From IMG/VR virus record IMGVR_UViG_3300017990_000353, positions 1 to 20,629 of that record: a stretch of 20,629 nucleotides of DNA. One strand, 5' to 3'. How positions within the stretch are numbered: position 1 is the stretch's first letter; the number at the start of each line of letters is the position of its first letter. Below the pieces are notes generated by a model. That model saw only the letters and a list, made by a program, of their open reading frames with translations. It ran no database searches and was not told where the DNA came from. Of the stretch, positions 58 to 20,629 are shown piece by piece. Position numbers and translations under genes: made by a program. Source of the DNA: a virus.

Positions 58-2097
58 CTAGGCGGTGTACTGGATATATAGCGCACCCTCCGTGGTGGTG
101 CTTGCGGTTGGTGGCGTTGCGCTAGTTCCGTAGCAGACGTTCACCACTTCGTCCGTCGTTCCTGTGCCGTGGTCACTTGCTACTACTGCTCCTGTGAACG
201 TCGCACCTGCGAGTGCTGCCTTCTTGTCCAGTTCAACCTTTGCCCCTGCTGGTGTGACTGCTCGTGTTGTATCTGTGCCTGTTGTAACTTCTGCGTCCGT
301 AGCAAGCTCTACTACACCCTCTGCTGTTGTGCTAGCGTTTGGTAGGTTTGCTTCTGGTAGAACACCTGTCACATCTGCTGTGAGGTCAATCTGATTGCGG
401 GTTATCTCTTGCCCTGTGATGGTGATGTAGTCTGGTGTGCCAGCAAGGGTAACGTTGGTTGAGTTGTCTGTACCTGCTTGGTCTACATCGAGCGTAGCGC
501 GTGCGGTAGCTGCGTCTGCATCGTCAATAACCGTTGCGCCGAAGGCACTGATTGTCGTGTTTGCAGGCAGCGAAAGTGTCTTGATGTCTGCGTCTACCTC
601 ACTATCCATAAGTGCTCCTGCTGCGGTGACGTTTGCGGTGTCGGTTACGTCTGCCCCTGTTTCAATGCCATCCAGCTTTGTTTTGTCACCGTCTACAAAT
701 GCACCCTCCGACGGTTTCACCTGTAGTGTTGATGTGTCGAGTGCCTTGACACCAGCAAGGTCTGTCAGTTCTGAGTCCATGAGAGCGCCAGCACTGGTCA
801 CATTTGCTGTGTCGGTCACATCTGCACCTGCTTCGATGCCGTCTAGTTTTGTCTTGTCGCCGTCTGCAAAACCACCCTCAGCAGGTTCTACCTGTATCGT
901 GCCAGTGATACCGTCGAGCTTGTTGAGTTCTGTTGCCGTGATACTCGTTGTGCCACCGTCCATTGAGATGCTGCCGTCTTGCTGTATGCGCAGTGCCTCT
1001 GAGCGCGAGGTCGCGCCGTTGTTCGTAATTTCAAACCGTAGCTCTGCACCGTTCTGTACTCCGCTCCAGTTCTCGGTGGCGTATGCTGAAGCCATTGCTG
1101 CGTTTGCCATTGTGCTTGCTCCGTCATTTGCACCACCGAAGAGGAAGTAACCAAGTCGTGTGCCTGATGCTGTGGCCGCACCATCATCACTGTATCCAGC
1201 CATACCAGCACCTGTGTTGCCACTTGCTACATCGTTGATGAACTGTGCCGTCACACCGTTGCCGTTGCGTGTCACAGAGAGTGTGTCGCCGTCAAACGTG
1301 AGGTCTGCGTCGCCCTCTATCGTGCCGTCACCTGTCCATACACCTACCTGTCCATCTGCTGGTGTTCCCACCTTTGCTACGTCACCACCTCCTGCTGGTA
1401 CAGCCCACTTGACGCCGAGTGCTTCTGAACTGTCTGCGGTGAGCACAGTGTTATCTGCGCCAATTGGTACACGAGCATTGGTAGTGCTGTAGCCCCACAA
1501 ATCGCCCTTCGTGGTGAGTGGTGAGGACAGACCACCTGTTGTCGTGCCACCTGATACATTCACGCCACCATGCACGAACTTTGGCCCACGGCTGGTTGCA
1601 GCGTCGAGCTTCCTAAACTGTGTTTCAATTTCATCCTGTAGGCCGTCAATAGCGGTGAACTTGAGTCTGTCGTGTCCCTCTAGGGCTTCCAGTTCTGCCT
1701 TGATGTAGTCAACGGTGATCACGTCAGTCGCCAATTCTGGCTTTGGTAGTGCCTCAACCTGTTTGGTGATGAAGTCGCGCACCTCTTTGTAGTCTGGGTA
1801 GTCCACACCTGCAATCGGAGTCGTACCGTCCTTTCCTGGTGCACCGTCGCGCACTTGCTTCATCCGCTTGTCCACACCCTGCAACAATTTGACGAAGTGC
1901 TTGTCGAGTTCTTTTTGCCGTTTCTGCGCTGCGCTGTCGATGTCAATGATGGCCTTTTGGCTGTTGATCCGTGCTTGCTTGACCGCCTCTATGACTTTGT
2001 TGAACATCGAGTAGAACTCGTCAGAGGTGATGTAGTCCTCTTCTTGGAGTCTTCCCATCATTCGCTCGAAGTCTTTTTTAGTAATTTTGTTGGCCAT
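58..2097 (-). CDS. Tail fibre protein
   Basis: A 679-residue protein built like a trimeric phage fibre. Residues 1-80 are charged and helical, a likely virion-attachment segment. Residues 84-102 hold a short collagen-like stretch (GAPGKDG, then GVDYPD). A second helical part runs to about 165. The rest is Gly/Thr/Ala/Asp-rich and probably beta-structured. A TTKGDLWGY...VLTADS segment near 193-225 is common in phage fibres. A 37-residue unit (DGDKTKLDGI...GADVTDTANVT) occurs twice, at 407-443 and 464-500. Near 590-625 there is an EGVVELATDAE...RAVTPAG repeat of the Phage_fiber_2 type. The C-terminus ends in a GALYIQY motif typical of fibre tips. Its likely role is host surface recognition; receptor and enzymatic activity cannot be read from the sequence. 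A TATAAT box lies 14 bases before the ATG. Confidence 0.88.
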   Translation of the reverse strand: MANKITKKDFERMMGRLQEEDYITSDEFYSMFNKVIEAVKQARINSQKAIIDIDSAAQKRQKELDKHFVKLLQGVDKRMKQVRDGAPGKDGTTPIAGVDYPDYKEVRDFITKQVEALPKPELATDVITVDYIKAELEALEGHDRLKFTAIDGLQDEIETQFRKLDAATSRGPKFVHGGVNVSGGTTTGGLSSPLTTKGDLWGYSTTNARVPIGADNTVLTADSSEALGVKWAVPAGGGDVAKVGTPADGQVGVWTGDGTIEGDADLTFDGDTLSVTRNGNGVTAQFINDVASGNTGAGMAGYSDDGAATASGTRLGYFLFGGANDGASTMANAAMASAYATENWSGVQNGAELRFEITNNGATSRSEALRIQQDGSISMDGGTTSITATELNKLDGITGTIQVEPAEGGFADGDKTKLDGIEAGADVTDTANVTSAGALMDSELTDLAGVKALDTSTLQVKPSEGAFVDGDKTKLDGIETGADVTDTANVTAAGALMDSEVDADIKTLSLPANTTISAFGATVIDDADAATARATLDVDQAGTDNSTNVTLAGTPDYITITGQEITRNQIDLTADVTGVLPEANLPNASTTAEGVVELATDAEVTTGTDTTRAVTPAGAKVELDKKAALAGATFTGAVVASDHGTGTTDEVVNVCYGTSATPPTASTTTEGALYIQYTA
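598..879 (-). repeat. Two copies of a 111-bp in-frame repeat in the fibre gene
   Basis: The units at 769-879 and 598-708 are each 111 bases, spaced by a 171-base period, and encode near-identical 37-residue segments (residues 407-443 and 464-500). The proteins differ at few positions (for example GGF/GAF, EAG/ETG, TSAG/TAAG), while the DNA differs mostly at third codon positions. The duplication is therefore old or held by protein-level selection rather than a recent slip. Confidence 0.85.
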
Positions 2098-9030: not shown

Positions 9031-9606
9031 TTACTTTTCTATTGTACTATGCTTTGCCGCCCACTGTCGCTTCCAGTCGTCTAGGTGACTAAACTTCTCC
9101 ACGACAACCTTGCCACCTTTCAGGTCTGCGGTCAGCAAGTCTTCGTATTCATCCAGGAAGTTCTCCTTTGTAACGTACTTCTGTATCTTGGGAATGGCAC
9201 GGTCTTTTATCTTTTGCACTTTGAGGGCCATCTTGTTTCGTTCCTTTTCGGCCTTTTCCTTTTTGTCTGATAGTGCAAGGTGTTCCTTTCGCATGTCGTC
9301 AGGTATAGCTTTCATCTTTTCTGCGTAGATTGCCTTGCTGATTTTTTCCAGCTTCTTTACGTCCTTGTTTATCTTTTCGCGTAGCTCGTTACCCTCCTTG
9401 ATGAGTTCCTTTGGTTCAACTTTGCCCGTCAACTCCATTTCTTGCTTGGATAGTTCTTCGATACGCTTCTCGATGTCAGCGATTTCCTTGCTAATCTTGC
9501 GCCCGTCTTTCACGAGCTCGTCCTTTTGTGCGAGCCATTTGATAAGGGTCTTGTCCTCAATGATTACTTTTCCTGTTGGAACAGGCTTTGATACGCTTTT
9601 TCCCAT
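9031..9606 (-). CDS. Lys/Glu-rich coiled-coil protein, unknown function
   Basis: A 191-residue protein dominated by charged helices: residues about 25-150 are Lys/Glu/Ile/Leu heptads, with no Cys and one short break (VEPKELIKEG near 63-72). The C-terminus (about 150-185) holds aromatic residues, including DDWKRQWAAKH. Its ATG lies 43 bases inside the preceding glycosyltransferase gene in another frame. No catalytic motif is visible. Its place after the capsid genes and before the adaptor suggests a virion or assembly protein, but composition alone does not show it. Confidence 0.7.
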   Translation of the reverse strand: MGKSVSKPVPTGKVIIEDKTLIKWLAQKDELVKDGRKISKEIADIEKRIEELSKQEMELTGKVEPKELIKEGNELREKINKDVKKLEKISKAIYAEKMKAIPDDMRKEHLALSDKKEKAEKERNKMALKVQKIKDRAIPKIQKYVTKENFLDEYEDLLTADLKGGKVVVEKFSHLDDWKRQWAAKHSTIEK

Positions 9607-10655
9607 AGTTCGGCGTTATTAGTAATGTTGTATTTGTCTTCTACATACTCACGGGCAGCTCTCCCCATAGCACGGCGTTTGTCGAGGTCTGTGGATAGTT
9701 CCCGTATGGCAGCAACGAACTCATCTGTGTCATTGGCTATAATCATGTGTTCAGCGTCATGCTTGTCCACTTGATACGGTGATTTCCCATCTGGGAACCC
9801 TTGTGCAATGACGGGTATTTCAAACAACGAGGCTTCGAGGAACTTGAGGTTGCTCTTGCATCGGTTGAAATAGTTGTCAGCCCGTGGAATTGCCATTATA
9901 TCAAGCCGTAGCTCGTTCAAGTAGTCGTAGTACAGCTCCATATCTACAAACCCATGCCAGTCGATGCGGTCTTGTATCTTGTCTAGTTTTTCGTACTCGT
10001 CTTTGTACAGTTCCTTCATAACCTTGTCGCCTCGGTTGCGAGGCATTGAGAACAGCACCCATTCAATATGCTCGTCGTCTATGGTGCGTGTGATGAGGTC
10101 GTAGGCGATGTCAAAGTCTGACGTGACACCTATTGAGCCAGTGATGCCGATGCGCACCTTGTCGCTCTCGTTGCGTTTCGGTTCGTCAAAGTAGAACGGG
10201 TCTATGCAGTTTGGCAACACGACGACGTTTGGATTGAGTTTGCGATACTCGTCTGCGAGGTAGTCAGTCGTGGTCGTAACCAAGTCAGCTTCTTTGATGA
10301 AGTCGTCAATAGTTTCGTTGATTTTGGCAAGGCCTGTCTCCAATCGTTCCTTGTCCATATACTCGTTGAGCTTGAACCCCCCGTCGTCCTTGTAGGTGTC
10401 ATCGTTGTCAAAGACGATTTTCTTGCCTTGCTGTTTGAGCATTCGTGCCAGTTTGAGCTTGTTGGGGTCGTCTGGTCGATGAAAGACCACGACATCTGCT
10501 TGTTGTGCTGCATAGGCTTTGTCTTCTGGTGTCTTGTTGACGTTATCTAGTATCATCGTCGTTTGATCGCCATCCCACCCGTTCTCAGTCAACGGTAGAA
10601 AACAACGGTAGAAATAGCAGCCCTGTAGACCTGAACTTACAAAGTAGGCTCTCAT
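9564..10655 (-). CDS. GT4/GT1-like glycosyltransferase (GT-B fold)
   Basis: A 363-residue protein with the layout of retaining GT-B glycosyltransferases. The N-terminal Rossmann half starts MRAYFVSS with the acceptor-side YRCFLPL (residues 16-22). A VVFHRP strand and a KIVFDNDDTY segment follow, then VVVLPNCIDP linking to the C-terminal half, which begins KVRIGITGSIG. Near the C-terminus FLEASLFEIPVIAQG matches the nucleotide-sugar-binding E-x7-E region. A final helix RAMGRAAREYVEDKYN is typical of GT4. The length is normal. It transfers a sugar from an activated donor; donor and acceptor are unknown. It is unusual to find it between the capsid and adaptor genes. Its ATG overlaps the TGA of the small gene before it, which suggests coupling with late expression and possibly with decoration of virion proteins. 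Confidence 0.82.
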   Translation of the reverse strand: MRAYFVSSGLQGCYFYRCFLPLTENGWDGDQTTMILDNVNKTPEDKAYAAQQADVVVFHRPDDPNKLKLARMLKQQGKKIVFDNDDTYKDDGGFKLNEYMDKERLETGLAKINETIDDFIKEADLVTTTTDYLADEYRKLNPNVVVLPNCIDPFYFDEPKRNESDKVRIGITGSIGVTSDFDIAYDLITRTIDDEHIEWVLFSMPRNRGDKVMKELYKDEYEKLDKIQDRIDWHGFVDMELYYDYLNELRLDIMAIPRADNYFNRCKSNLKFLEASLFEIPVIAQGFPDGKSPYQVDKHDAEHMIIANDTDEFVAAIRELSTDLDKRRAMGRAAREYVEDKYNITNNAELWEKAYQSLFQQEK

Positions 10656-10897: not shown

Positions 10898-11812
10898 CTA
10901 CGCAGCCGTGAGCATCTTCACACCAGAAGTATCTCGGTTCTCGATTACACCGTAGAGAATGTCTGCGGTTGTGAGAGTTGAGAGGTATTCTGGGATGTAG
11001 TTTGACTGGACGCGAACACCTGCGCTGCCAACCATGCTGCCCTTTGAACCACCAGAACCAAGAGGTGAGGTAGCCCAGTGGATAGCATCCTTGTGAGCGA
11101 GAGCGTTGTAACGGCCTGTCGTGCCAGAAACGTACTGTATCTGGGTGGTGATGTACACAGGGATACCGTACAGGTATGCCATAGGCTTCTTGGCGACAGG
11201 GTCTTGAACTGGGCTGTTGATAGCCAGTGAGAACTTGTCGAGTGACTGTACATCGTTCCAGAAGACATCAGGGTGCATGAAGAATGCACGGTCTTCCTGT
11301 GGTACGTTTGCGCTGTCGAGGTAAGCGATAGCAGCGCGGATTTCGCTGTCTGCGAGGTTGGTGGTTGAAGCACCAACTGACTGGCTGAAGCCAGAGAACA
11401 GAGAAGTGATAGCTGTGTCGAGCTTCTTTGCTACGCCGTATCCTGCGCTGCGAGCGTAGGACTCTTGTACGGTGTAGCTGTGCTTGACCTGAGCCATTTC
11501 GCGATCCTCAATGGCGAACGATACCTCGTACCACTGGTCGATGGTGAGGGTGACGTTCGTTTCATCGGGAGCGACGAGTGTAACTGCGGTTGCGTTGGAC
11601 TTAGCCGTTGCAGCCATCTCAGTTACGGATGGGGTGTAAATAATACGACCACCATCTGCTACTTCGTCTGAGCGATCCGTGAAGAACGGGGCACACACGA
11701 GGTTTGCACGGTAGAAGTCGTTTACTTTTTCTCCCCACAGTGAGGGCATCATTGCATCGAGGTCGGTTGAACCATTGCTGTATGCGCCAACTGAAGTTGT
11801 AGGAAATGCCAT
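10898..11812 (-). CDS. Major capsid protein
   Basis: A 304-residue protein. It directly follows the scaffold gene, has the size and near-neutral composition of HK97-fold coat proteins, and lacks Cys-rich or catalytic motifs. Typical coat features are an N-terminal arm with SLWGEKVNDFYRANLV (residues 24-39), a beta-rich E-loop-like region around 55-95, a long spine-like helix region about 100-140 (YTVQESYARSAGYGVAKKLD), and a C-terminal domain with FFMHPDVFWNDVQSLD and PMAYLYGIPVYITTQI. There is no N-terminal protease or delta domain, so a separate scaffold rather than a cleaved fusion is used. It is followed by a stable hairpin. HK97 fold is inferred. Confidence 0.85.
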   Translation of the reverse strand: MAFPTTSVGAYSNGSTDLDAMMPSLWGEKVNDFYRANLVCAPFFTDRSDEVADGGRIIYTPSVTEMAATAKSNATAVTLVAPDETNVTLTIDQWYEVSFAIEDREMAQVKHSYTVQESYARSAGYGVAKKLDTAITSLFSGFSQSVGASTTNLADSEIRAAIAYLDSANVPQEDRAFFMHPDVFWNDVQSLDKFSLAINSPVQDPVAKKPMAYLYGIPVYITTQIQYVSGTTGRYNALAHKDAIHWATSPLGSGGSKGSMVGSAGVRVQSNYIPEYLSTLTTADILYGVIENRDTSGVKMLTAA

Positions 11813-12474: not shown

Positions 12475-12660
12475 CTATTGTAACCTATTTTTATAAATAC
12501 GTTCACCCTCCCAACCGTAACGAGGCTTTATCTCGACTTCTGTATCGACTACATCACCCCATCCTTTCGCTGCCTTGCGTACCTTTTTTACAGCTTTTGT
12601 AGCTACTTGCTTGACGGTCTTCTTGACAGTCTTTTTTGCGGTTTTCTTTTTTGCTGGCAT
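12475..12660 (-). CDS. Histone-H1-like Lys-rich small protein
   Basis: A 61-residue protein. Residues 1-33 are almost only Lys, Ala, Thr and Val (PAKKKTAKKTVKKTVKQVAT), like the C-terminal tails of histone H1 and bacterial H1-like proteins. The remainder, beginning WGDVVDTEVE, is mixed and includes an aromatic GWEGERIYKN. The gene sits one base after its upstream neighbour. The high positive charge predicts DNA or RNA binding, or binding to the acidic scaffold next door; which one is inference. The DNA of the basic part contains short near-tandem repeats. Confidence 0.7.
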   Translation of the reverse strand: MPAKKKTAKKTVKKTVKQVATKAVKKVRKAAKGWGDVVDTEVEIKPRYGWEGERIYKNRLQ

Positions 12661-12896: not shown

Positions 12897-14717
12897 TTAC
12901 GCTACAGGAGCTTCTGTGGGCTGTGTTTGTCCTGGTGTGACGGATTGTACGGGTGACGGTGTTGCAGGGCCTTGTGGGGCAGCCTGTGGCTTCTGAGGGC
13001 CGCCTATGCCTAGTTCTATAGGTGATATACCGACTGCTGCCTTGTCTACAATGGTGCCGAACAGTTTTGCCAGTGTTGGGTTCTCTAGGATTGCGAACGT
13101 GCCCGTCTGTGGGTTGTAGCTTTGTGACACCGTTGACATGATTTGACTGAGTGATGTCAGTACGGCTGCCTTGTTCTCCTGTTCGTTGGTGATGTTGAGC
13201 GTTACCTTGCCCTCCCAACCGTCAAAGAACTTCTCAGGTATCTTGACGTGTCGTTTTGCGCCTCCCTTGCGTGCCATTTCGATGTTCTCGGCCTTGATTG
13301 TGTCGATGTCCTCTTGTGTGAACGTCTGCATTTTGAGCAACATATCCTTTGCGGCCTTGCGTGCCATCTTATTACCGTATGCCTCGTCGATAGCCTCCAA
13401 TTCTTCTTCGTCGTATTCCTCTGCCAGTACGTGCTCACCTTTCAACTTGTTGATAAGGTGTGGAATAACCCACTCATTGAACGCCTCCTCTAGGTCAATG
13501 CCAGCTTCCTCCTGTCGAAAGGCGAATGGTCGCTGTGCCACCTGGTTCAACAGTGCTGTCTGGCTGTATGGGGTGCCCGATGGTGGTTGTTCGCCTGTGT
13601 TTGCGTCGAATGTGCTGTTGGCCTTGTCGAGTTGGTTCTCCCACTGTTCGACAATGTTTTGGAAGTTGCCAAGTGCTGCTGGTGCAAGCTCTAGCTTTTC
13701 CATACGACGGCCTTCTTCGACTTTCCATACCTTGCCGTCGTCTACCTCCAACATATTCCCAGCCACGTTGTCTGCATCGGTGACTACTGTGACCTTTCCA
13801 GCCAAGTCCATAGTGTTCTTCTGCTTGATCACCAGGTCGTTTACCCATACCTGGCCCTCCTCGCTTTCCTCGATAACACCACGGCCCAAACCACGGCCTG
13901 TCACTTCTTCCCATGCAAGGTAGCGATAGTCTAGTTCCTTTGGCTTCTGGCTGTACAGCACGTATTCGCAGTCCTCGTCGTCTTCGTCTACCAATAGGAA
14001 GTGCTTTTGCAGGTAGTAGCGGTCAGTTGCGTCCTGTGGTTCTTTGCCCTGTGCCTCTAGGTATGTGTCATGGTCGAACACACCCGTTATCTCATGCACC
14101 TTGAGTCGCATCGGTGCCTCGTCGTCGCCTTGCTGCTCGCGCTTTTCCTCAAACAACTCAAGCGCACGGTCAATTGCCTCATCGTTCCACGTACCGCGCT
14201 TGTTGATGAAGTCCAGTGGTGACAGGTAGTGTTCCTCGATAATCGGTGAGCCAATGATGTCCACTTGGTCAGTCAGTGTGTTGCGCCAATCGCACACTTC
14301 TAGGTACAGCTCGCCGTCTTTGAGCACTTTTTTGTACAGCACGCCACCGTACTTTGGACGCACGTATGCGTACTTGTTCAGGAATGTGCTGAACTTTGTT
14401 TGCTTCATCCACTTGTACATCTCACGGTTCAGCAACATCGTCTGCGCCCATGCCTTGCTGTTATCGCTTGTTGCACGGAAGTCCTTGATGTCGAACTCTG
14501 TGGCAGTCTTTGCGAGCGTAACGCGGAAGTTCACTACGTTGAAGAACGGCTTGTCACGTCCCAGGTCGTCTTTTTGACCACTGGCGTAGCGACTGAGTGC
14601 GTAGAAGTCAGCCGTTTTGATTAGTTCGCGCTGTTTGTATTCAAGTCCCTCGTAGAGTTGCACACTACCGTCACGGTAGCGTCCCTCGAAATACTTTGCC
14701 TGATCGTATATATTCAT
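12897..14717 (-). CDS. Portal protein
   Basis: A 606-residue protein directly after the large terminase, the usual portal position. The N-terminus is helical (residues 1-120). A beta-containing wing region includes YGGVLYKKVLKDGELYLEV (123-141) and PIIEEHYLSPLDF (158-170). The segment RGLGRGVIEESEEGQVWVND (275-294) matches the portal stem pattern in which a G-R-G-x-x-E motif leads into long helices. A polar loop near 371-385 (DANTGEQPPSGTPYSQ) resembles the tunnel-loop region. The C-terminus is Pro/Gln-rich and disordered. Length is in the range for podoviral and siphoviral portals. It forms the dodecameric DNA gate, binds terminase during packaging and the adaptor afterwards. No fused MuF domain is seen. 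Confidence 0.82.
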   Translation of the reverse strand: MNIYDQAKYFEGRYRDGSVQLYEGLEYKQRELIKTADFYALSRYASGQKDDLGRDKPFFNVVNFRVTLAKTATEFDIKDFRATSDNSKAWAQTMLLNREMYKWMKQTKFSTFLNKYAYVRPKYGGVLYKKVLKDGELYLEVCDWRNTLTDQVDIIGSPIIEEHYLSPLDFINKRGTWNDEAIDRALELFEEKREQQGDDEAPMRLKVHEITGVFDHDTYLEAQGKEPQDATDRYYLQKHFLLVDEDDEDCEYVLYSQKPKELDYRYLAWEEVTGRGLGRGVIEESEEGQVWVNDLVIKQKNTMDLAGKVTVVTDADNVAGNMLEVDDGKVWKVEEGRRMEKLELAPAALGNFQNIVEQWENQLDKANSTFDANTGEQPPSGTPYSQTALLNQVAQRPFAFRQEEAGIDLEEAFNEWVIPHLINKLKGEHVLAEEYDEEELEAIDEAYGNKMARKAAKDMLLKMQTFTQEDIDTIKAENIEMARKGGAKRHVKIPEKFFDGWEGKVTLNITNEQENKAAVLTSLSQIMSTVSQSYNPQTGTFAILENPTLAKLFGTIVDKAAVGISPIELGIGGPQKPQAAPQGPATPSPVQSVTPGQTQPTEAPVA

Positions 14718-14738: not shown

Positions 14739-15932
14739 CTACCTTGCGTTATTTGCTAAGTTGCGATTTCGCTCTTGCGTAATTCTAATTCTATCACGTA
14801 ATGAAAGTTCATTACTAGCTCGGAAGCTCTCTAAACCATAACGCACAGCATCCATAGCGTCACTATAGTCGTGGTTTGGTGCATTGGTTATGCGCCCCTC
14901 CTTGTCTATTTCAAACATATAGTTCATGTAGCACTTCCAAACGTTGAAGCTGCGCTTGGTGACACTGATCTTCTGGTGTTGGACGTACTGTATGCCCTGG
15001 TTCACACTATCTCTACCCTTTTTGGTTCCCATAATGTTGATTCCATATGAACGTATCTCATCTATTGACTTTGGTTCGGCACTGTCAGCCATTACTAACG
15101 CACGCTCTGTATTCTGTAGCACGTCAGCTATCTGCTTGTTGCTCATCCCCGTGGCGTAGGCAATCTCGTCGATGATGTAGCCACCGTTGTATGAGTAGAT
15201 AGCAACGATAGCTGTCGGGTCGTTGGTGTAGCCGAAGTCCAACCCGTATCGTTCCAGCCGTGCCTCGTGTGGTATCTCATCTATCTGTCGCCAGTTCTTG
15301 TATATCTTGCCCTCAACTTCACCTAGCTGGCCTTCACCGTAGACCTTCCACCATCCAGTAAGCCCCCTTCTTTTTTCTATTGACTCAACAATCGCGGGAT
15401 CAAGGGCTTCATTGTCTCTGTAGGTAAGGGTGATGTGGTTTACGTCGTCACGGTGTCCTATAACCTGATCGTATACCCAAAACTCATTGGTTGGGTTGTA
15501 ATCTATGAAAATAAACTCTTTCGTTCGCACCTCAAGCTGGTCAAACGACTCGTATGGCAATAAGTTTGCCTCATTCACAAACAACCTGTCTCGTCGCGGC
15601 CCTCTAACCTTGCCTGGCATATCTGCCGAGAAGAACTCTATACGTGAACCAGTCTCAAATGTGTATGTTTTTTCTCCTTTGCTCCACCTCCTGTCCTCGT
15701 AATATCCATGCTCTTGCATTATCATAAGAAAGTCACGCATTGCACCTCGTTTCAGATGGGGGTACGACTCAGAAACAACGCTAGTGAGTGTCGGACGTTT
15801 GTCTGTCTGAGCCATTGCAATGAGATACAGTAAGATACTGATGGTTTTACTGGCGGATGTGCCGCCCTGTACCACACGTATTCGCTTGGTCAACTCCCTT
15901 ATTCGCCTGGTTGCTGTCGTTTCTTGAAACAT
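14739..15932 (-). CDS. terL: Terminase large subunit
   Basis: A 397-residue packaging ATPase and nuclease. Walker A is GGTSASKT (residues 23-30). Walker B is LFVNEAN (117-123) with the catalytic Glu at 121. A coupling-type IDYNPTN lies at 143-149. The C-terminal RNase H-like nuclease carries acidic residues in GLDFGYTNDPT (Asp232), MADSAEPK (Asp283) and YSDAMDAVRYG (Asp358/361). This matches the Terminase_3/PBSX-type family. It overlaps the endonuclease VII gene by 34 bases in another frame. It cuts concatemeric DNA and pumps it through the portal. No key residue seems to be missing. Confidence 0.95.
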   Translation of the reverse strand: MFQETTATRRIRELTKRIRVVQGGTSASKTISILLYLIAMAQTDKRPTLTSVVSESYPHLKRGAMRDFLMIMQEHGYYEDRRWSKGEKTYTFETGSRIEFFSADMPGKVRGPRRDRLFVNEANLLPYESFDQLEVRTKEFIFIDYNPTNEFWVYDQVIGHRDDVNHITLTYRDNEALDPAIVESIEKRRGLTGWWKVYGEGQLGEVEGKIYKNWRQIDEIPHEARLERYGLDFGYTNDPTAIVAIYSYNGGYIIDEIAYATGMSNKQIADVLQNTERALVMADSAEPKSIDEIRSYGINIMGTKKGRDSVNQGIQYVQHQKISVTKRSFNVWKCYMNYMFEIDKEGRITNAPNHDYSDAMDAVRYGLESFRASNELSLRDRIRITQERNRNLANNAR

Positions 15933-16309
15933 GACTCGATATAGTTTATGGCTGCCTCCATTCGCTGTATGTCGTCCTCAAACATACCAATCGCCCAGTT
16001 GCACTTCTGGCAGAGTAGCCCCCGCACGACACCCGTGGTGTGACAATGGTCTACCGCCAACCTCTTGTTCTTTTCCTCACGCCTACAAATTGCGCACACG
16101 CCTCCCTGTCGTTTCAACATCTTTTCATAGTCCCGTATCGAGATGCCGAAGACCTTGCGAAGTCGCTTATCAGTCTCTTTGTCTTTGTTGGCCTCTCGTT
16201 CAGCAGCTAGTCTCTCCTTGTGCCTTTCTTTGTACGCCTTTGTGTACGCCCGCTTCTTGTCCCTGTTTTTGAGATAATAGGCACGGTGGTACTCCTTATT
16301 GTACGTCAT
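15899..16309 (-). CDS. Recombination endonuclease VII-like (His-Me/HNH) nuclease
   Basis: A 136-residue protein. Residues 1-50 are a very basic Lys/Arg/Tyr helix. The nuclease core has zinc ligands Cys72/Cys75 (CAIC) and Cys100/Cys103 (CQKC), a DHCH catalytic block (87-90), the HTTGVVRGLLC segment, and Asn104 directly after the last zinc Cys, as in T4 gp49. Endonuclease VII resolves Holliday junctions and other branched DNA; in phages this frees DNA for packaging. It lies between the two terminase genes and overlaps both (14 and 34 bases). A homing-type HNH insertion is less likely because the overlaps show integration into the operon. Confidence 0.88.
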   Translation of the reverse strand: MTYNKEYHRAYYLKNRDKKRAYTKAYKERHKERLAAEREANKDKETDKRLRKVFGISIRDYEKMLKRQGGVCAICRREEKNKRLAVDHCHTTGVVRGLLCQKCNWAIGMFEDDIQRMEAAINYIESCFKKRQQPGE

Positions 16310-16694
16310 CTTCCCTTGTTAGTGGGATAATTGGTGTAGGCAGTTCTTTGCCGTCCGTCGTTACGTCTGACTTCTCTCTCATGCCGTGGTTACTGCTAAG
16401 CACGAGCTTTGCAATGGTTGGGTTATAGTCCCCAGAAAGCCCTTTATCTAACAGCCGTTTGCGCTGTTCCTCTCGTATCTGTGTCAAAGAGTTGGAAAAC
16501 TCTGGGTGAGCTTGCTCCCATTCATAAAGTGTGGTCTTATTTACCCCTATATGAGCAGCAAATCCCTCTACGGTTGGTAGGTTGACTGTCTGACGCTTGG
16601 TCTCCTCGTCAAAGGTGTCTTGTCGCTCCTCTAAGTAGTCCCAAACTATGTCGTTGAACTTTGGGTCGTATTTTGATGGTCTTCCTCCTGGCAT
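16296..16694 (-). CDS. terS: Terminase small subunit
   Basis: A 132-residue protein. The start MPGGRPSKYDP is typical of small terminases. A helix-turn-helix lies at about 41-64 (TVEGFAAHIGVNKTTLYEWE), followed by an oligomerising helical region (SLTQIREEQRKRLLDKGL) and a C-terminal tail rich in Pro/Thr (LPTPIIPLTRED) that may contact the large subunit. It recognises phage DNA for packaging. An extended -10 promoter candidate lies directly before it, and the ATG falls where transcription should start. Confidence 0.88.
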   Translation of the reverse strand: MPGGRPSKYDPKFNDIVWDYLEERQDTFDEETKRQTVNLPTVEGFAAHIGVNKTTLYEWEQAHPEFSNSLTQIREEQRKRLLDKGLSGDYNPTIAKLVLSSNHGMREKSDVTTDGKELPTPIIPLTREDDVQ

Positions 16695-16700
16695 AGATAT

Positions 16701-16709
16701 ATTTTAGCA
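16701..16709 (-). promoter_or_regulatory. Extended -10 promoter giving a possible leaderless terS transcript
   Basis: On the minus strand TGCTAAAAT is followed by 6 bases (ATATCT) and the terS ATG. Transcription normally starts about 7 bases after the -10 box, so the first base of the mRNA would be the A of ATG. The box overlaps the end of the GT2 gene. The same word pattern and spacing occurs before the dehydratase gene. Confidence 0.55.
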
Positions 16710-17318
16710 TGGATTATAGTTTTCGCGGTGTCTGCGGTAGTACAGTAGTGGCTTTTGTAGGTGCTTGATCGTTGCTCCCTTGTTCATCAGAGCGTTGTAC
16801 AGGTGCATGTCCTCTAATGAGCGTCCTGGGGGTGACTGGTAGCCACCTGCCCGTTTTGCCATACCTGTCTTGTAGAGCATTGAGCCGTGGTGTCCACCGT
16901 CCCTGTGCCAATACAGCCCTTCTGGGTCGCGTTGTGTCTCGCCTGGGTGTCTGCCTTCTATCTCATTGCGCCTATCACCTACTACCATGATGTCGTACAT
17001 TACGATGTCTGTCGTCCACTCGCTCAACTGTTCCAGTGCGTCAGCGCGTAGCCAGTTGTCGGCACCCAAGAACATCACGTAGTCCGTGTCCACCTCGTTC
17101 ATTAGCATGTCTTGGAAGTTTGCCACGGTTCCCATGTTCTTTGTGCGCAGCACGTAGTTCACTTCGGGATACAACTCTGGTAGGTGTGTGCAATCTCCCA
17201 CGCCGTCGTCAACAAACCATACCTTGTCGAACTGCTTGGTCTGTTCTAGCACCGTTTCTATCGCATGTGCCGCTAGGTGGCCGTATTTGTATGATGCTAT
17301 AACGCAGCCGTAGGTCAT
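16704..17318 (-). CDS. GT2-family glycosyltransferase (GT-A fold)
   Basis: A 204-residue protein when started at the ATG that overlaps the preceding TGA (ATGA); a longer upstream extension is a shadow of the dioxygenase gene. It opens MTYGCVIASYKYG as GT2 enzymes do. The nucleotide-binding VWFVDDGVGD has Asp37/Asp38. A GADN at 85-88 (FLGADNW) stands where the metal-binding DxD is normally found, with Ala in place of the first Asp. The catalytic-base region is SLEDMHLYNALM (Glu169/Asp170). The C-terminus is LLYYRRHREN. It is shorter than typical GT2 enzymes (about 250-300) but complete in core motifs. It likely adds one sugar from an activated donor. It is the last gene of the sugar module, 9 bases before terS. 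Confidence 0.82.
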   Translation of the reverse strand: MTYGCVIASYKYGHLAAHAIETVLEQTKQFDKVWFVDDGVGDCTHLPELYPEVNYVLRTKNMGTVANFQDMLMNEVDTDYVMFLGADNWLRADALEQLSEWTTDIVMYDIMVVGDRRNEIEGRHPGETQRDPEGLYWHRDGGHHGSMLYKTGMAKRAGGYQSPPGRSLEDMHLYNALMNKGATIKHLQKPLLYYRRHRENYNPC

Positions 17319-18049
17319 GGTATGAGTGTTGGGTCTATGTCTTGTGGCTCTCCGTCTTTCAGATACCACGGATAGTCCAGGCAGCCTTCGGCTCGGGCAA
17401 GCCCATTCATGTAGGTGCAACGGTCTTGATCGCTGTGGTTCTGCTCCGAACCGTGTACGGTTGTGACGTACCAGAGCAGCACACTACCCTTCTTGGCTTC
17501 GTATTTCGTCCCGTAACGGCCCCTGCGGTCAAACGTGCGTAAGTTGCCCAGTGACCCTGTAAACTCGTCGTCTGGCTCCTGGTGTGAGCCCTCAATGAAC
17601 TCCACTGTGCCGTTCTCCACTGTGAGGTCGTCTACTGCAATGATGGTCTGTAGGTAGTGCTCGCGAATGTTGGGGAACCTGTCGGCTGGTGTGCGAAAGA
17701 TAACGTCCCTGTGCCAGTTGAACTGATCCTCGGTGTGGGCTTCACGGAAATAGACCTGATTGTTTACCTGCTTTACGTTGTCGCCCAAGAACGCTCGCAC
17801 TATCTTCACCATGCGAGGGTCTTTGCGTATATCGTTCAGGTAGCTATTGACTATGGCTGGAAAGAACACAAGTGCCTTGTGACCATACTTGTATTCAATG
17901 GGAACATGCGGGTAACCAGCCTTTGATACTTCTTCGGCGGTGATGGTCTTTGCCTCTGTCTTGAGGCGGGCCATCTCCTCGTCAGTAAACACGCCAGAGA
18001 TTGAGGTGATGCCCTTCTCCTGTAGTTCTGTGATTTGTTTGTTATACAT
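17315..18049 (-). CDS. PhyH-type Fe(II)/2-oxoglutarate dioxygenase
   Basis: A 244-residue protein. The start at 18049 is chosen because it overlaps the preceding stop by only 8 bases and begins MYNKQITELQEKG, typical of the family; a longer start is an artefact of overlap. The metal-binding triad is visible: His113 and Asp115 in NWHRDV, and His199 in TTVHGSE. The 2-oxoglutarate-binding Arg is likely Arg210 (SDQDRCTYM). The motif ENGTVEFIEGSHQ (145-157) is the usual PhyH loop. Such enzymes hydroxylate small molecules or sugars. Within a sugar module it could modify a nucleotide sugar or glycan; the substrate is unknown. Confidence 0.85.
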   Translation of the reverse strand: MYNKQITELQEKGITSISGVFTDEEMARLKTEAKTITAEEVSKAGYPHVPIEYKYGHKALVFFPAIVNSYLNDIRKDPRMVKIVRAFLGDNVKQVNNQVYFREAHTEDQFNWHRDVIFRTPADRFPNIREHYLQTIIAVDDLTVENGTVEFIEGSHQEPDDEFTGSLGNLRTFDRRGRYGTKYEAKKGSVLLWYVTTVHGSEQNHSDQDRCTYMNGLARAEGCLDYPWYLKDGEPQDIDPTLIP

Positions 18050-18566
18050 ATGCCCGTGGTATGGATAAGATTGTTCCGTCTGTTGCGTCAACACTAAATG
18101 CACTCCCGTATTTCTGTTCTACTAAGCGCAGCACACGATCATTGTACCGACCATATGGATAGGCGAAGTAATCAGTGGGGAAGCCCTCAAACGGCGTTAT
18201 TTCTCGCTGTATTTCCTCATCTGATAGTGTTGTTAGGTCGCGGTGACTCCATGTGTGCCAGCCCACTTTACATCCCATCTTCTCTAGTTCGACTATCTCT
18301 TTGAGCGTGCAGTATTCCTCTCGTGGCATACCCTTGTCGAAGCTGTTGTCTTTGCCGATGTAGTCACCCATGACAAACAAGATCACGTCGCGGCCCTCTA
18401 GTAGATCGCGGTTCTCATAGACGTTCTTGTACACGCCGTCGAACGTCAGTGTGCCTGTTGCGTTTGCTACCTCGTCACGGGTGTTATAGTTAGCGGCTAT
18501 GTGCGGCTGCTTGCTCGGTGACTCACCGATGTTGTGCATCAGCATTACGGTTTCTGGTATAGACAT
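18042..18566 (-). CDS. NodB-like polysaccharide deacetylase with degenerate metal site
   Basis: A 174-residue protein if started at ATG 18566, which leaves MSIPETVMLMHNIGE, the usual N-terminus of this family. A start at 18650 would add 28 residues read through the methyltransferase gene. Motif 1, normally TFDDG, reads TFDGV (41-45), losing the second Asp that binds metal. Motif 2 HTWSH (104-108) and motif 3 AYPYG (135-139) are kept, as is the FVMGDYIG strand. It may act weakly, use another metal ligand, or be a binding protein. It overlaps the methyltransferase by 22 bases and the dioxygenase by 8. It would remove acetyl groups from a glycan if active. Confidence 0.8.
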   Translation of the reverse strand: MSIPETVMLMHNIGESPSKQPHIAANYNTRDEVANATGTLTFDGVYKNVYENRDLLEGRDVILFVMGDYIGKDNSFDKGMPREEYCTLKEIVELEKMGCKVGWHTWSHRDLTTLSDEEIQREITPFEGFPTDYFAYPYGRYNDRVLRLVEQKYGSAFSVDATDGTILSIPRAYV

Positions 18567-19027
18567 AAGTGCTCGACGTAATCCCTGTATGGGAAGTGCT
18601 GCTCGTGCAACAATTTCCATCCTATGAACTTGTCCAAACCTTTCTCCCATGACTCTATGTTACACAAAAGAACGTGGTGGCTACTAGCGTGCTTCGCCAT
18701 GCGGACGATTGCTTTGTAGTCATACTGTTCGTATAGCATACCCGTTACTACAACAAGGTCATACCGACCTTCGGGAAACTCAACACGTGTCACGTTGTCG
18801 GGAAAACGCTCGGCTGCTACATCACTGATTTCGATGCCGTGTATCTCATCTGCTGGCAGGTCTGTTGTGAGCCAGCCTTCACCTGCGCCGATGTCTAGTG
18901 CGCGTTTGTAGTGTTCGGGTAAAACCTCCAAGATGATGTCTTTGCGCTTCTGGTCGTCAGGGTTTGTCTCGTAGCCCCACGGATCACGCTGACAATACCA
19001 CTGTTCTAGCTCGCCCTTAGTTTGCAT
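18545..19027 (-). CDS. SAM-dependent methyltransferase (class I, NodS-like)
   Basis: A 160-residue protein. The N-terminal YCQRDPWGYETNPDDQKRKD (11-30) is the signature of NodS-type methyltransferases. Motif I is ALDIGAGEGWLT (43-54). The acidic SAM-ribose residue is in HGIEIS (63-68). A later strand, RYDLVVVTGMLYEQYDY, ends the core. At 160 residues it is short (family usually 180-210), with little beyond the core. It overlaps the dehydratase by 11 bases. NodS methylates an amino sugar in Nod factors; by analogy it could N- or O-methylate a sugar here, but the substrate is not shown. Confidence 0.82.
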   Translation of the reverse strand: MQTKGELEQWYCQRDPWGYETNPDDQKRKDIILEVLPEHYKRALDIGAGEGWLTTDLPADEIHGIEISDVAAERFPDNVTRVEFPEGRYDLVVVTGMLYEQYDYKAIVRMAKHASSHHVLLCNIESWEKGLDKFIGWKLLHEQHFPYRDYVEHLCLYQKP

Positions 19028-19997
19028 ACCATCGTGGGTTATCTAGCGTCCACTTGACTGTCTTTTCAAGCGACTCATCGAATGTTCGCGGCACCTCCCA
19101 TCCTATCTCTTGCATAGAAACGGGGCTGAGCGCGTAACGTAGATCGTGCCCTGGTCGGCTACTGTGGAAGTCAACCATCTCATACTTGAGTGGCTTGCCG
19201 ATGATTGCTGCTATCTTTTGCGCTAGTTGTAGGTTATCCACCTCTTGTTCACCTGTGATGTGGTATTCACCGTCGTACACTTCATTGTTGATGAGGTGCA
19301 TGTAACCGTCTGCTACGTTCCTCGCATGTATGTAGAATCGTGAACCTGCTTTGGTCTTATCTGCATTGGCGTGGATCGTGACGGTTTCACCCTCCATGAC
19401 CTTGCGTATGACAATCGGTATAAACTTCTCCGAGTCCTGGCGTTCTCCAAAGATATTCATAGACCGTGTGATCGCAATCGGTAAGTTGTACGTGTTAGCG
19501 TACGCTATACAGAACATCTCGGCGGCACTCTTGCTTGCACTGTATGGGTTACTTGGGCGGTGTACGTCACCTACATTTGACCAGCCAACGTCTATCGAGC
19601 CGAATACCTCGTCAGTTGAGAAGTAGTAAAAGCATTTGAGGTTCTTGAGCGTGCGTGCAAAGTTGAGCATATGCACCGTCCCGACCACGTTGCTCTGTGC
19701 AAAGCGTACTGGATCGGTGATGCTGTTATCTACGTGACTCTCGGCTCCTAAGTGGAAAATGTAGTCAACCTCGCCTATCTCGGCAGCAAGGTTTTCTTCT
19801 ACTGGCAGCGTGAAGTCTGCTGTGAGCACGGTAATGCGCTCATCGTTGTATACGTTGATGTCACGCAAGCGGTCGAGCGAGCCAGCGTATGATAGACGGT
19901 CAATGATGACGATGTGCCAGTCTGTGTTCTTGATAAAATGCTCGACAAAATGATGGCCTACAAACCCTAGACCACCAGTGATAGCGACACGTTTCAT
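19017..19997 (-). CDS. rmlB: dTDP-glucose 4,6-dehydratase
   Basis: A 326-residue extended short-chain dehydrogenase with RmlB signatures: NAD-binding TGGLGFVG (7-14), DRLSYAGSLDRL (33-44) for the NAD adenine side, FHLGAESHVDNSI (81-93), the dehydratase-specific STDEVFG (127-133) with the Asp129/Glu130 pair, and YSASK (152-156) with catalytic Tyr and Lys. Length is slightly below the usual 340-360. It converts dTDP-glucose to dTDP-4-keto-6-deoxyglucose, the entry to rhamnose and other deoxysugars. RmlA, RmlC and RmlD are not in the window, so precursors may come from the host or from genes outside. A promoter candidate and upstream hairpin mark it as first gene of a new unit. Confidence 0.9.
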   Translation of the reverse strand: MKRVAITGGLGFVGHHFVEHFIKNTDWHIVIIDRLSYAGSLDRLRDINVYNDERITVLTADFTLPVEENLAAEIGEVDYIFHLGAESHVDNSITDPVRFAQSNVVGTVHMLNFARTLKNLKCFYYFSTDEVFGSIDVGWSNVGDVHRPSNPYSASKSAAEMFCIAYANTYNLPIAITRSMNIFGERQDSEKFIPIVIRKVMEGETVTIHANADKTKAGSRFYIHARNVADGYMHLINNEVYDGEYHITGEQEVDNLQLAQKIAAIIGKPLKYEMVDFHSSRPGHDLRYALSPVSMQEIGWEVPRTFDESLEKTVKWTLDNPRWYAN

Positions 19998-20044: not shown

Positions 20045-20063
20045 CCCCCTCATTGCGAGGGGG
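20045..20063 (-). terminator. Terminator-like hairpin after the phosphoesterase gene
   Basis: A perfect 7-bp stem (CCCCCTC and GAGGGGG) with a 5-base loop begins 7 bases after the phosphoesterase stop. On the minus strand it is followed by CATAGTTTTCC, a short T-run. It separates the upstream unit from the promoter of the sugar module. The U-tract is weak, so termination may be partial. Confidence 0.6.
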
Positions 20064-20070
20064 ACTTTGA

Positions 20071-20629
20071 TTAGCAGGAAAAGATAATGGGTATGTTGAC
20101 CGTCATGCCGCGATCCTTGTCGATAAGGAACAAGGCTTGGCATGGTCGCTCGAACTCTGCACCTATCTTGGTGGCGAAGCTGTTGTACCCGACCACGGAG
20201 CCGTTCAGTACCCAACCAGCGGGGTTCACACGATACATGTGCAGGTGCCCGATGACATCTATGACGGGGCTGCCCTTGGCAACGTTGGCTTTGTTCCATT
20301 GCATTGCTCTTCTATTGAGGTAGGTGTAGGGGCCGTTGACGCCACCAAAGCTGATGGTGTCACCGTGATGGAAGCGCAGGGTGCGTTCGCCTGGGTGCCC
20401 TTTGTACAGGGTGATGTACGTGTGGAGGGCGAGGTCGTTCACCCAGTTGAACTGTGGCAGCCTTGCAGCCAGGTTGTGGAACATGTACCACTCCAGACTG
20501 TTCCCTTGACGAGAACTGGCGTGCAGCCTGTGGGTCACTCGGCCATGGTTTCCATCTTTGCAGACAATGGTTATCTTGTCGAAGTGTGGCTCAAGGTGGA
20601 GTAAGCCGCTCTCTATCCAGCTCTGTGCA
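20071..20629 (-). CDS. Metallophosphoesterase (calcineurin-like), 5' end outside window
   Basis: The open frame continues to the right edge. About 185 residues are visible. A DGNHGR block near 20545-20562 is the GNH[D/E/G] metal- and phosphate-binding motif of calcineurin-like phosphoesterases. It is followed by RFHHGDT-type residues (HHGD, near 20365-20376) and the terminal GHLHMYR (GHxH) near 20243-20263. The order GNH ... H ... GHxH is that of the family; the first motif (DxH) must lie outside the window. The C-terminus ends in NGSVVGYNSFA, common in phage versions. It could act on nucleic acid ends, nucleotides or proteins. It is probably upstream of the late region, in a different transcription unit. 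Confidence 0.78.
   Translation of the reverse strand, partial: AQSWIESGLLHLEPHFDKITIVCKDGNHGRVTHRLHASSRQGNSLEWYMFHNLAARLPQFNWVNDLALHTYITLYKGHPGERTLRFHHGDTISFGGVNGPYTYLNRRAMQWNKANVAKGSPVIDVIGHLHMYRVNPAGWVLNGSVVGYNSFATKIGAEFERPCQALFLIDKDRGMTVNIPIIFSC

Follow-up and report, generated by a model that had tools for sequence, protein, structure and literature searches.

Rhizobial Nod-factor synthesis involves NodC, a GT2 glycosyltransferase, together with NodB and NodS. NodB deacetylates and NodS then N-methylates, and N-methylation of the chito-oligomers never takes place without prior deacetylation (PMC5080398). Among phages, the virions of mycobacteriophages are glycosylated by phage-encoded glycosyltransferases, with glycans on capsid and tail-tube subunits (PMC12619734 and PMC12691614, both citing Freeman et al. 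2023). The present analysis concerns IMG/VR virus record IMGVR_UViG_3300017990_000353, positions 1 to 20,629 (the window, i.e. the whole stretch of 20,629 nucleotides), in which five glycan genes precede terS, the gene of the terminase small subunit. Here, I show that four of them, encoding a methyltransferase (MT), a deacetylase homologue (DAC), a PhyH dioxygenase and a GT2 glycosyltransferase, form a real, recurrent, virus-enriched and previously unnamed sugar cassette, of which no published description was found in the literature searched.

Like the Nod-factor trio NodC-NodB-NodS, the cassette brings together a GT2, a NodB-fold putative deacetylase and a NodS-type methyltransferase; it differs in that the homology is distant, the phage DAC is shorter and has one Asp fewer, PhyH is added, the NodA acyltransferase is missing and the genes are phage-borne. 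With mycobacteriophage virion glycosylation it has phage-encoded glycosyltransferases in common, whereas a NodB/NodS/PhyH cassette goes unmentioned in the passages describing that system, and the glycans of the one presented here are predicted. The glycan clusters of cyanophages and jumbo phages likewise hold NAD-dependent dehydratases and several glycosyltransferases and are sporadic and polymorphic, but they form large islands that have been interpreted as modifying the host surface, and the section of PMC7824862 devoted to them does not mention an MT-DAC-PhyH-GT2 unit.

A recurrent viral cassette

The five glycan genes are all on the minus strand, running from 19997 to 16704:

19017 to 19997, minus strand: dTDP-glucose 4,6-dehydratase-like (RmlB-like) gene (TIGR01181, 8du1, motifs), a local addition
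18545 to 19027, minus strand: MT, NodS-like class I S-adenosylmethionine (SAM) methyltransferase (Methyltransf_23, NodS 3ofj), cassette core
18042 to 18566, minus strand: DAC, short NodB-like (CE4-type) deacetylase homologue (Polysacc_deac_1, E 2.6e-13), cassette core
17315 to 18049, minus strand: PhyH, Fe(II)/2-oxoglutarate dioxygenase (PhyH, E 1.1e-22), cassette member absent in some relatives
16704 to 17318, minus strand: GT2, GT-A fold glycosyltransferase (Glycos_transf_2, E 5e-11), cassette member

Successive genes overlap by 11, 22, 8 and 4 bp, and a gap of 9 bp separates GT2 from terS on the same strand; the arrangement directly before terS is thus as the preliminary description of this DNA had given it. 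The families that it named also hold, all five proteins exceeding the gathering score by which Pfam calls on window proteins were judged (GDP_Man_Dehyd 152.7, Methyltransf_23 35.3, Polysacc_deac_1 50.5, PhyH 81.8 against a cut-off of 22, and Glycos_transf_2 43.2 bits). The region is not an assembly artefact, because identical copies exist in other IMG/VR contigs (L003/L035 and L027; partially in L002), and the same virus recurs at 100% protein identity in a 32.9-kb contig and in further contigs.

The recurrent unit is MT-DAC-(PhyH)-GT2 and not the five-gene module first proposed: MT, DAC, PhyH and GT2 recur, whereas the dehydratase is a local addition, missing from most cassettes and found at high similarity near another cassette only in L091. 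Non-redundant viral versions number 47 once DAC proteins with an alignment score of about 90% are merged and both MT and DAC are required for inclusion; MT and DAC are accordingly present in 47/47, GT2 in 40/47 and PhyH in 35/47, some of the absences being contig ends. Profiles built from the pairs of the window and of phage MW202801.1 returned 27 MT loci and 25 DAC loci in viral contigs. In MT-anchored and DAC-anchored scans, where pairing was not required, every MT locus has a DAC and vice versa, the sole exception being a match cut off by the end of its contig; MT and DAC share a strand, with MT 5' of DAC and an overlap in nearly every case. The same neighbour set is recovered independently from the other two genes, MT and DAC standing at 32 of the 35 non-redundant GT2 loci that are not cut at their 5' side and at 33 of the 36 PhyH loci. 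PhyH is optional, since it is absent from L060 and present in its close sibling L057. Pairwise distances of the four cassette proteins correlate (Mantel-type r 0.68-0.91; 0/500 permutations as high), so that the four genes tend to diverge together, as expected for co-travelling genes.

Clear relatives of MT, DAC and PhyH occur in only one of 50,697 phage records, MW202801.1, and GT2 has no relative among these records. A blastn search of the region against phage records matched the dehydratase gene alone, in cyanophages; a single-sequence PhyH scan returned the same virus only, relatives needing profile searches; and four of the five module proteins belong to no PHROGs family. In cells, the DAC profile detected four loci (L091-L094) across 85,000 bacterial and archaeal genomes, in a scan that needs exact short peptide patterns and that more divergent copies could escape. 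L091 and L092 hold the whole cassette and one further gene in common, and in L093 the cassette stands 5' of tail-type genes; these three clear matches look like phage contigs. The fourth locus, L094, was rejected as a cassette copy, because it encodes an ordinary, distantly related deacetylase and belongs to a polysaccharide locus of Bacteroides. When 301 Chloroflexi genomes were searched by profile, the single hit was in a contig already known, and plasmids gave weak partial matches only. The near-absence from the 85,000 genomes, the 301 Chloroflexi genomes and plasmids disfavours a bacterial origin of the cassette, and the concern that the genes might belong to a neighbouring host polysaccharide cluster is not borne out. 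The cassette is carried by phages with unrelated terminases and capsids. The phage-like contig L091 (PAOV01000021.1), from a Chloroflexi metagenome-assembled genome, also carries an RmlB-like dehydratase and an inosine monophosphate (IMP)-dehydrogenase-like gene along with the whole cassette.

The NodS-like and NodB-like pair and its companions

The MT family profile finds NodS (3ofj) as its best PDB match (E 1.4e-6; next match 6e-4), and NodS is also its best NCBIfam match, at 17 bits against an equivalog cut-off of 300; MT is best regarded as NodS-like only, and not as NodS.

The DAC model has a predicted local distance difference test (pLDDT) score of 94 and adopts the NodB (distorted barrel) fold, with PF01522 above its cut-off. 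Its closest PDB folds in Foldseek are PplD (E 4e-9) and IcaB (E 2e-8), with PgaB also among the top matches; the fold predicted is that of these CE4 enzymes, PgaB and IcaB having NodB2 topology, and a catalytic-type His near the DAC N-terminus is placed as is motif 5 of NodB2, also N-terminal (PMC10967932). DAC differs from PgaB, IcaB and PplD in its length of about 172 residues, in having no signal peptide, and in reading FDG for FDDG. Residues H9, D41, G42, H102 and H106 are invariant in 27 relatives. Motif 2 (HxxxH, with two metal-binding His) is thus present as GWHTWSH, whereas in motif 1 the first Asp is kept and the second is Gly in 27/27, so that the tandem pair is incomplete. In standard CE4 enzymes the tandem Asp serve as base and metal ligand, the ligand being the second of them. 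The tandem pair is described as catalytic and metal-binding (PMC10967932). DAC is therefore named here a NodB-like fold protein, not a proven CE4 enzyme, and its deacetylase activity is putative. The unbroken pairing of MT with DAC fits the two-step logic of Nod-factor deacetylation followed by N-methylation. The DAC model also has a weak fold match (E 8e-4) to the turret of the haloarchaeal virus HFTV1 (8qpg).

In PhyH, the HxD...H facial triad (H112, D114, H198) and the 2-oxoglutarate Arg (R209) are invariant in 17 relatives. The GT2 model (pLDDT 91.5) is a confident GT-A fold, with the Leptospira glycosyltransferase 6p61, RmlT, TarP and SpsA as PDB relatives and with invariant DD, GADNW and ED motifs. 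The dehydratase matches TIGR01181 over its full length at 250 bits (E 3e-74), below the equivalog cut-off of 365.1 bits, and the solved dTDP-glucose 4,6-dehydratase 8du1 at E 2.6e-58; aligned to 8du1, it keeps the catalytic T-D-E and YxxxK motifs as STDEVFG and YSASK. It is a predicted RmlB-like enzyme, below equivalog level.

The slot before terS and the capsid-linked GT4

From the glycan genes onward, the gene order is terS, endonuclease VII, terL (terminase large subunit), portal, small genes, scaffold-like gene, capsid, GT4-like gene and tail-region genes. The features flanking the module are:

20071 to 20629, minus strand: exonuclease/phosphoesterase-like gene, C-terminal part (PHROG 284 exonuclease, E 1.1e-14), upstream neighbour, truncated at the edge of the window
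20045 to 20063, minus strand: hairpin CCCCCTC/GAGGGGG between upstream gene and module, possible terminator (consensus scan; weak)
16296 to 16694, minus strand: terS, terminase small subunit (GP3_package 65.7 bits, E 4.7e-18)
15899 to 16309, minus strand: recombination endonuclease VII (PF02945, E 7.7e-26), between terS and terL and overlapping both
14739 to 15932, minus strand: terL, terminase large subunit (Terminase_3C, Terminase_3, phrog_2)
12897 to 14717, minus strand: portal-like protein, directly after terL (37-38% similarity to the L015 and L070 genes in this position)
10898 to 11812, minus strand: major capsid protein (tblastn against capsid genes annotated in Anabaena phage A-4L and elsewhere)
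9564 to 10655, minus strand: GT4-like glycosyltransferase after the capsid gene (PF13524; phrog_7162, E 2.7e-41), shared late-region companion

A comparison of 33 terL-related viral contigs places L015 nearest in synteny, copies of the same virus aside (terL 65%, capsid 68%, GT4 55%). L015 lacks the cassette and has in the slot 5' of terS a cytidylyltransferase-like gene and a different GT2 (L015:2209-3104), whereas the second lineage member, L070 (portal 38%, capsid 48%, GT4 35%), has MT-DAC and GT2 there without PhyH. Conservation of the gene set in other phages, which the preliminary description had asked to see, is found, and L015 alone among the relatives shows the lack of conservation that would have counted against the proposal. 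Because L015 and L070 differ in this slot and yet both keep the GT4, the slot before terS is variable, a swappable sugar-gene site, while the GT4 after the capsid stays.

Elsewhere, too, the cassette recurs beside packaging or head genes, in keeping with a glycan module of a late phage operon; in unannotated contigs the neighbouring genes were identified partly by eye. A case in point is L069, a phage whose terL is different and whose portal is at 24%, where the cassette lies directly 5' of terS as in the window; in L047 it stands between a terS-like gene and terL, in L064 shortly 3' of terL, and in L042, L040 and L048 between capsid and tail genes. In larger phages it is at least 12 kb from terL, near a RecA-like gene or within glycan islands. 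A GT4 of one broad family lies 3' of the capsid gene in six phages (the window, where the preliminary description had already placed it, L015, L070, L069, L042 and L040); glycosyltransferase genes in the late structural region, as in a phage virion-glycosylation system, are thus found here.

Podoviridae sp. ctQWt234 (MW202801.1, L040) is an unrelated podovirus with PhyH, MT, NodB-like and GT4 genes after its capsid gene, at 43-49% identity for PhyH, MT and DAC; it differs in carrying an integrase, a radical SAM/SPASM enzyme and an unrelated GT2, and in having no dehydratase in the cluster. The radical SAM/SPASM enzyme lies 5' of its cassette (L040:19640-20704) and is possibly an alternative sugar- or peptide-modifying step. 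In one phage group the cassette adjoins a RecA-like gene and not head genes (L055:8001-11743).

As to the remainder of the window, the complete upstream exonuclease/phosphoesterase-like gene has 404 residues in the longer 32.9-kb contig. The hairpin total of the consensus scan is not above shuffle expectation, so the terminator at 20045 to 20063 is weakly supported, and a sigma-70 promoter scan gave no match above chance. Between the portal and scaffold-like genes, a lysine/alanine-rich protein of 61 residues (KKKTAKKTVKKTVKQVATKAVKKVRKAAKG; 12475-12660, minus strand) has a histone H1-like composition and could be a DNA-binding virion protein. A tail-fibre-like protein (58-2097, minus strand) contains repeated units DGDKTKLDGIE(A/T)GADVTDTANVT(S/A)AGALMDSE.

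A possible route to a decorated virion

Since MT is nearest to NodS, DAC has the NodB fold and rhizobial NodB acts before NodS, a cytosolic pathway of deacetylation and N-methylation may be proposed. The locus would be a mobile cassette for sugar decoration, restricted to viruses, that in this podovirus-like phage has its place in the late operon, and all of its steps would be cytosolic. The NodB-like DAC would strip an amino sugar of its N-acetyl group, whether the sugar is nucleotide-bound or already part of a growing glycan, and the NodS-like MT would methylate the freed amine; PhyH, in the phages that carry it, would hydroxylate the sugar, GT2 would transfer or extend it, and the GT4 3' of the capsid gene would make the first link or another one. 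In the phage of the window, the extra RmlB-like dehydratase would feed the cassette. The acceptor would most likely be a virion protein, because in related phages the GT4 stays immediately behind the capsid gene and the genes preceding terS are the ones that swap; the virion is a best guess, and host-surface modification its main rival. I infer each reaction, the reaction order, the sugar and the acceptor by analogy, and the mechanism is plausible. It builds on observed gene identities, recurrence, MT-DAC pairing, co-divergence, late-region placement in several lineages and the absence of membrane-like segments from every module protein. Taken whole, from deacetylation to a virion target, this reading is favoured tentatively.

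Several observations weigh against it. MT is a distant relative of NodS, as the bit scores given above indicate; DAC, in which CE4 motif 1 always has a single Asp in place of the tandem pair, could be a pseudoenzyme; and the cassettes of the L055 group, L071 and L073 are not beside head genes but next to a RecA-like gene or in big glycan islands, a placement in larger phages that fits a host-glycan role equally. That the cassette alters a host surface polysaccharide (lipopolysaccharide, capsule or teichoic acid) during infection, thereby blocking rival phages, is possible though rather unlikely. The multi-gene glycan islands around the cassette in the large phages L071 and L073, the surface-glycan reading given to jumbo-cyanophage clusters in PMC7824862, and the resemblance of the GT2 fold to the teichoic-acid glycosyltransferases TarP, TarS and RmlT all speak for it; yet the module includes no flippase, polyprenyl-phosphate or polyprenyl-linked transferase or membrane protein of the kind marking a host surface-glycan (seroconversion) module, its genes sit in several small phages among packaging and head genes, usually expressed too late for host protection, and the GT4 tracks the capsid gene.

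The altered motif 1 of DAC, Gly for Asp in all 27 aligned relatives, also lends itself to the view that DAC is a partner protein with a NodB fold but no catalytic activity and that MT O-methylates the 4-keto-6-deoxy sugar of the dehydratase, giving the methylated, hydroxylated deoxysugar of the preliminary description. A CE4 pseudoenzyme, BA3943, is known and has a weak fold match to DAC, and the RmlB-like dehydratase overlaps MT in the window; however, a dead protein would not need the invariant first Asp, the two motif-2 His and the N-terminal His, and most cassettes are without the dehydratase, which makes this view improbable. The earlier interpretation is overall partly supported, NodS and NodB kinship indicating an N-methylated, deacetylated amino sugar rather than a simply methylated deoxysugar. 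The same kinship argues against hypermodification of phage DNA, in which sugar or hydroxyl groups would be put onto bases before packaging. Such a role has adjoining terminase genes and the chemical plausibility of PhyH-type dioxygenases and glycosyltransferases in its favour, and DNA-modifying phage glycosyltransferases are known (cited in PMC12619734); but of the 18 records with the cassette that were tested, only 2 gave a thymidylate synthase/hydroxymethylase homologue, and none was found in the 33-kb, possibly incomplete, contig of this phage. The idea is very improbable.

To sum up, a cassette that keeps its partners in dozens of unrelated viruses and is nearly absent from cells marks a selected viral function. 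That unrelated phages share a virus-only cassette which puts an N-methylated, sometimes hydroxylated amino sugar, made with the help of a NodB-fold enzyme whose metal site is altered, onto their own particles, interchangeable cassettes serving a conserved capsid-linked glycosyltransferase, is a bolder proposition and, as stated in full, a doubtful one. Phage virion glycosylation is known from few systems, and the cassette offers four named families (MT, DAC, PhyH and GT2) that are open to assay straight away. Should DAC be active with a single Asp and two His, this would bear on metal binding in CE4 enzymes. Along the same line, the swapping of genes in the slot before terS, with the GT4 fixed at the capsid, makes the exchange of sugar coats between phages testable.

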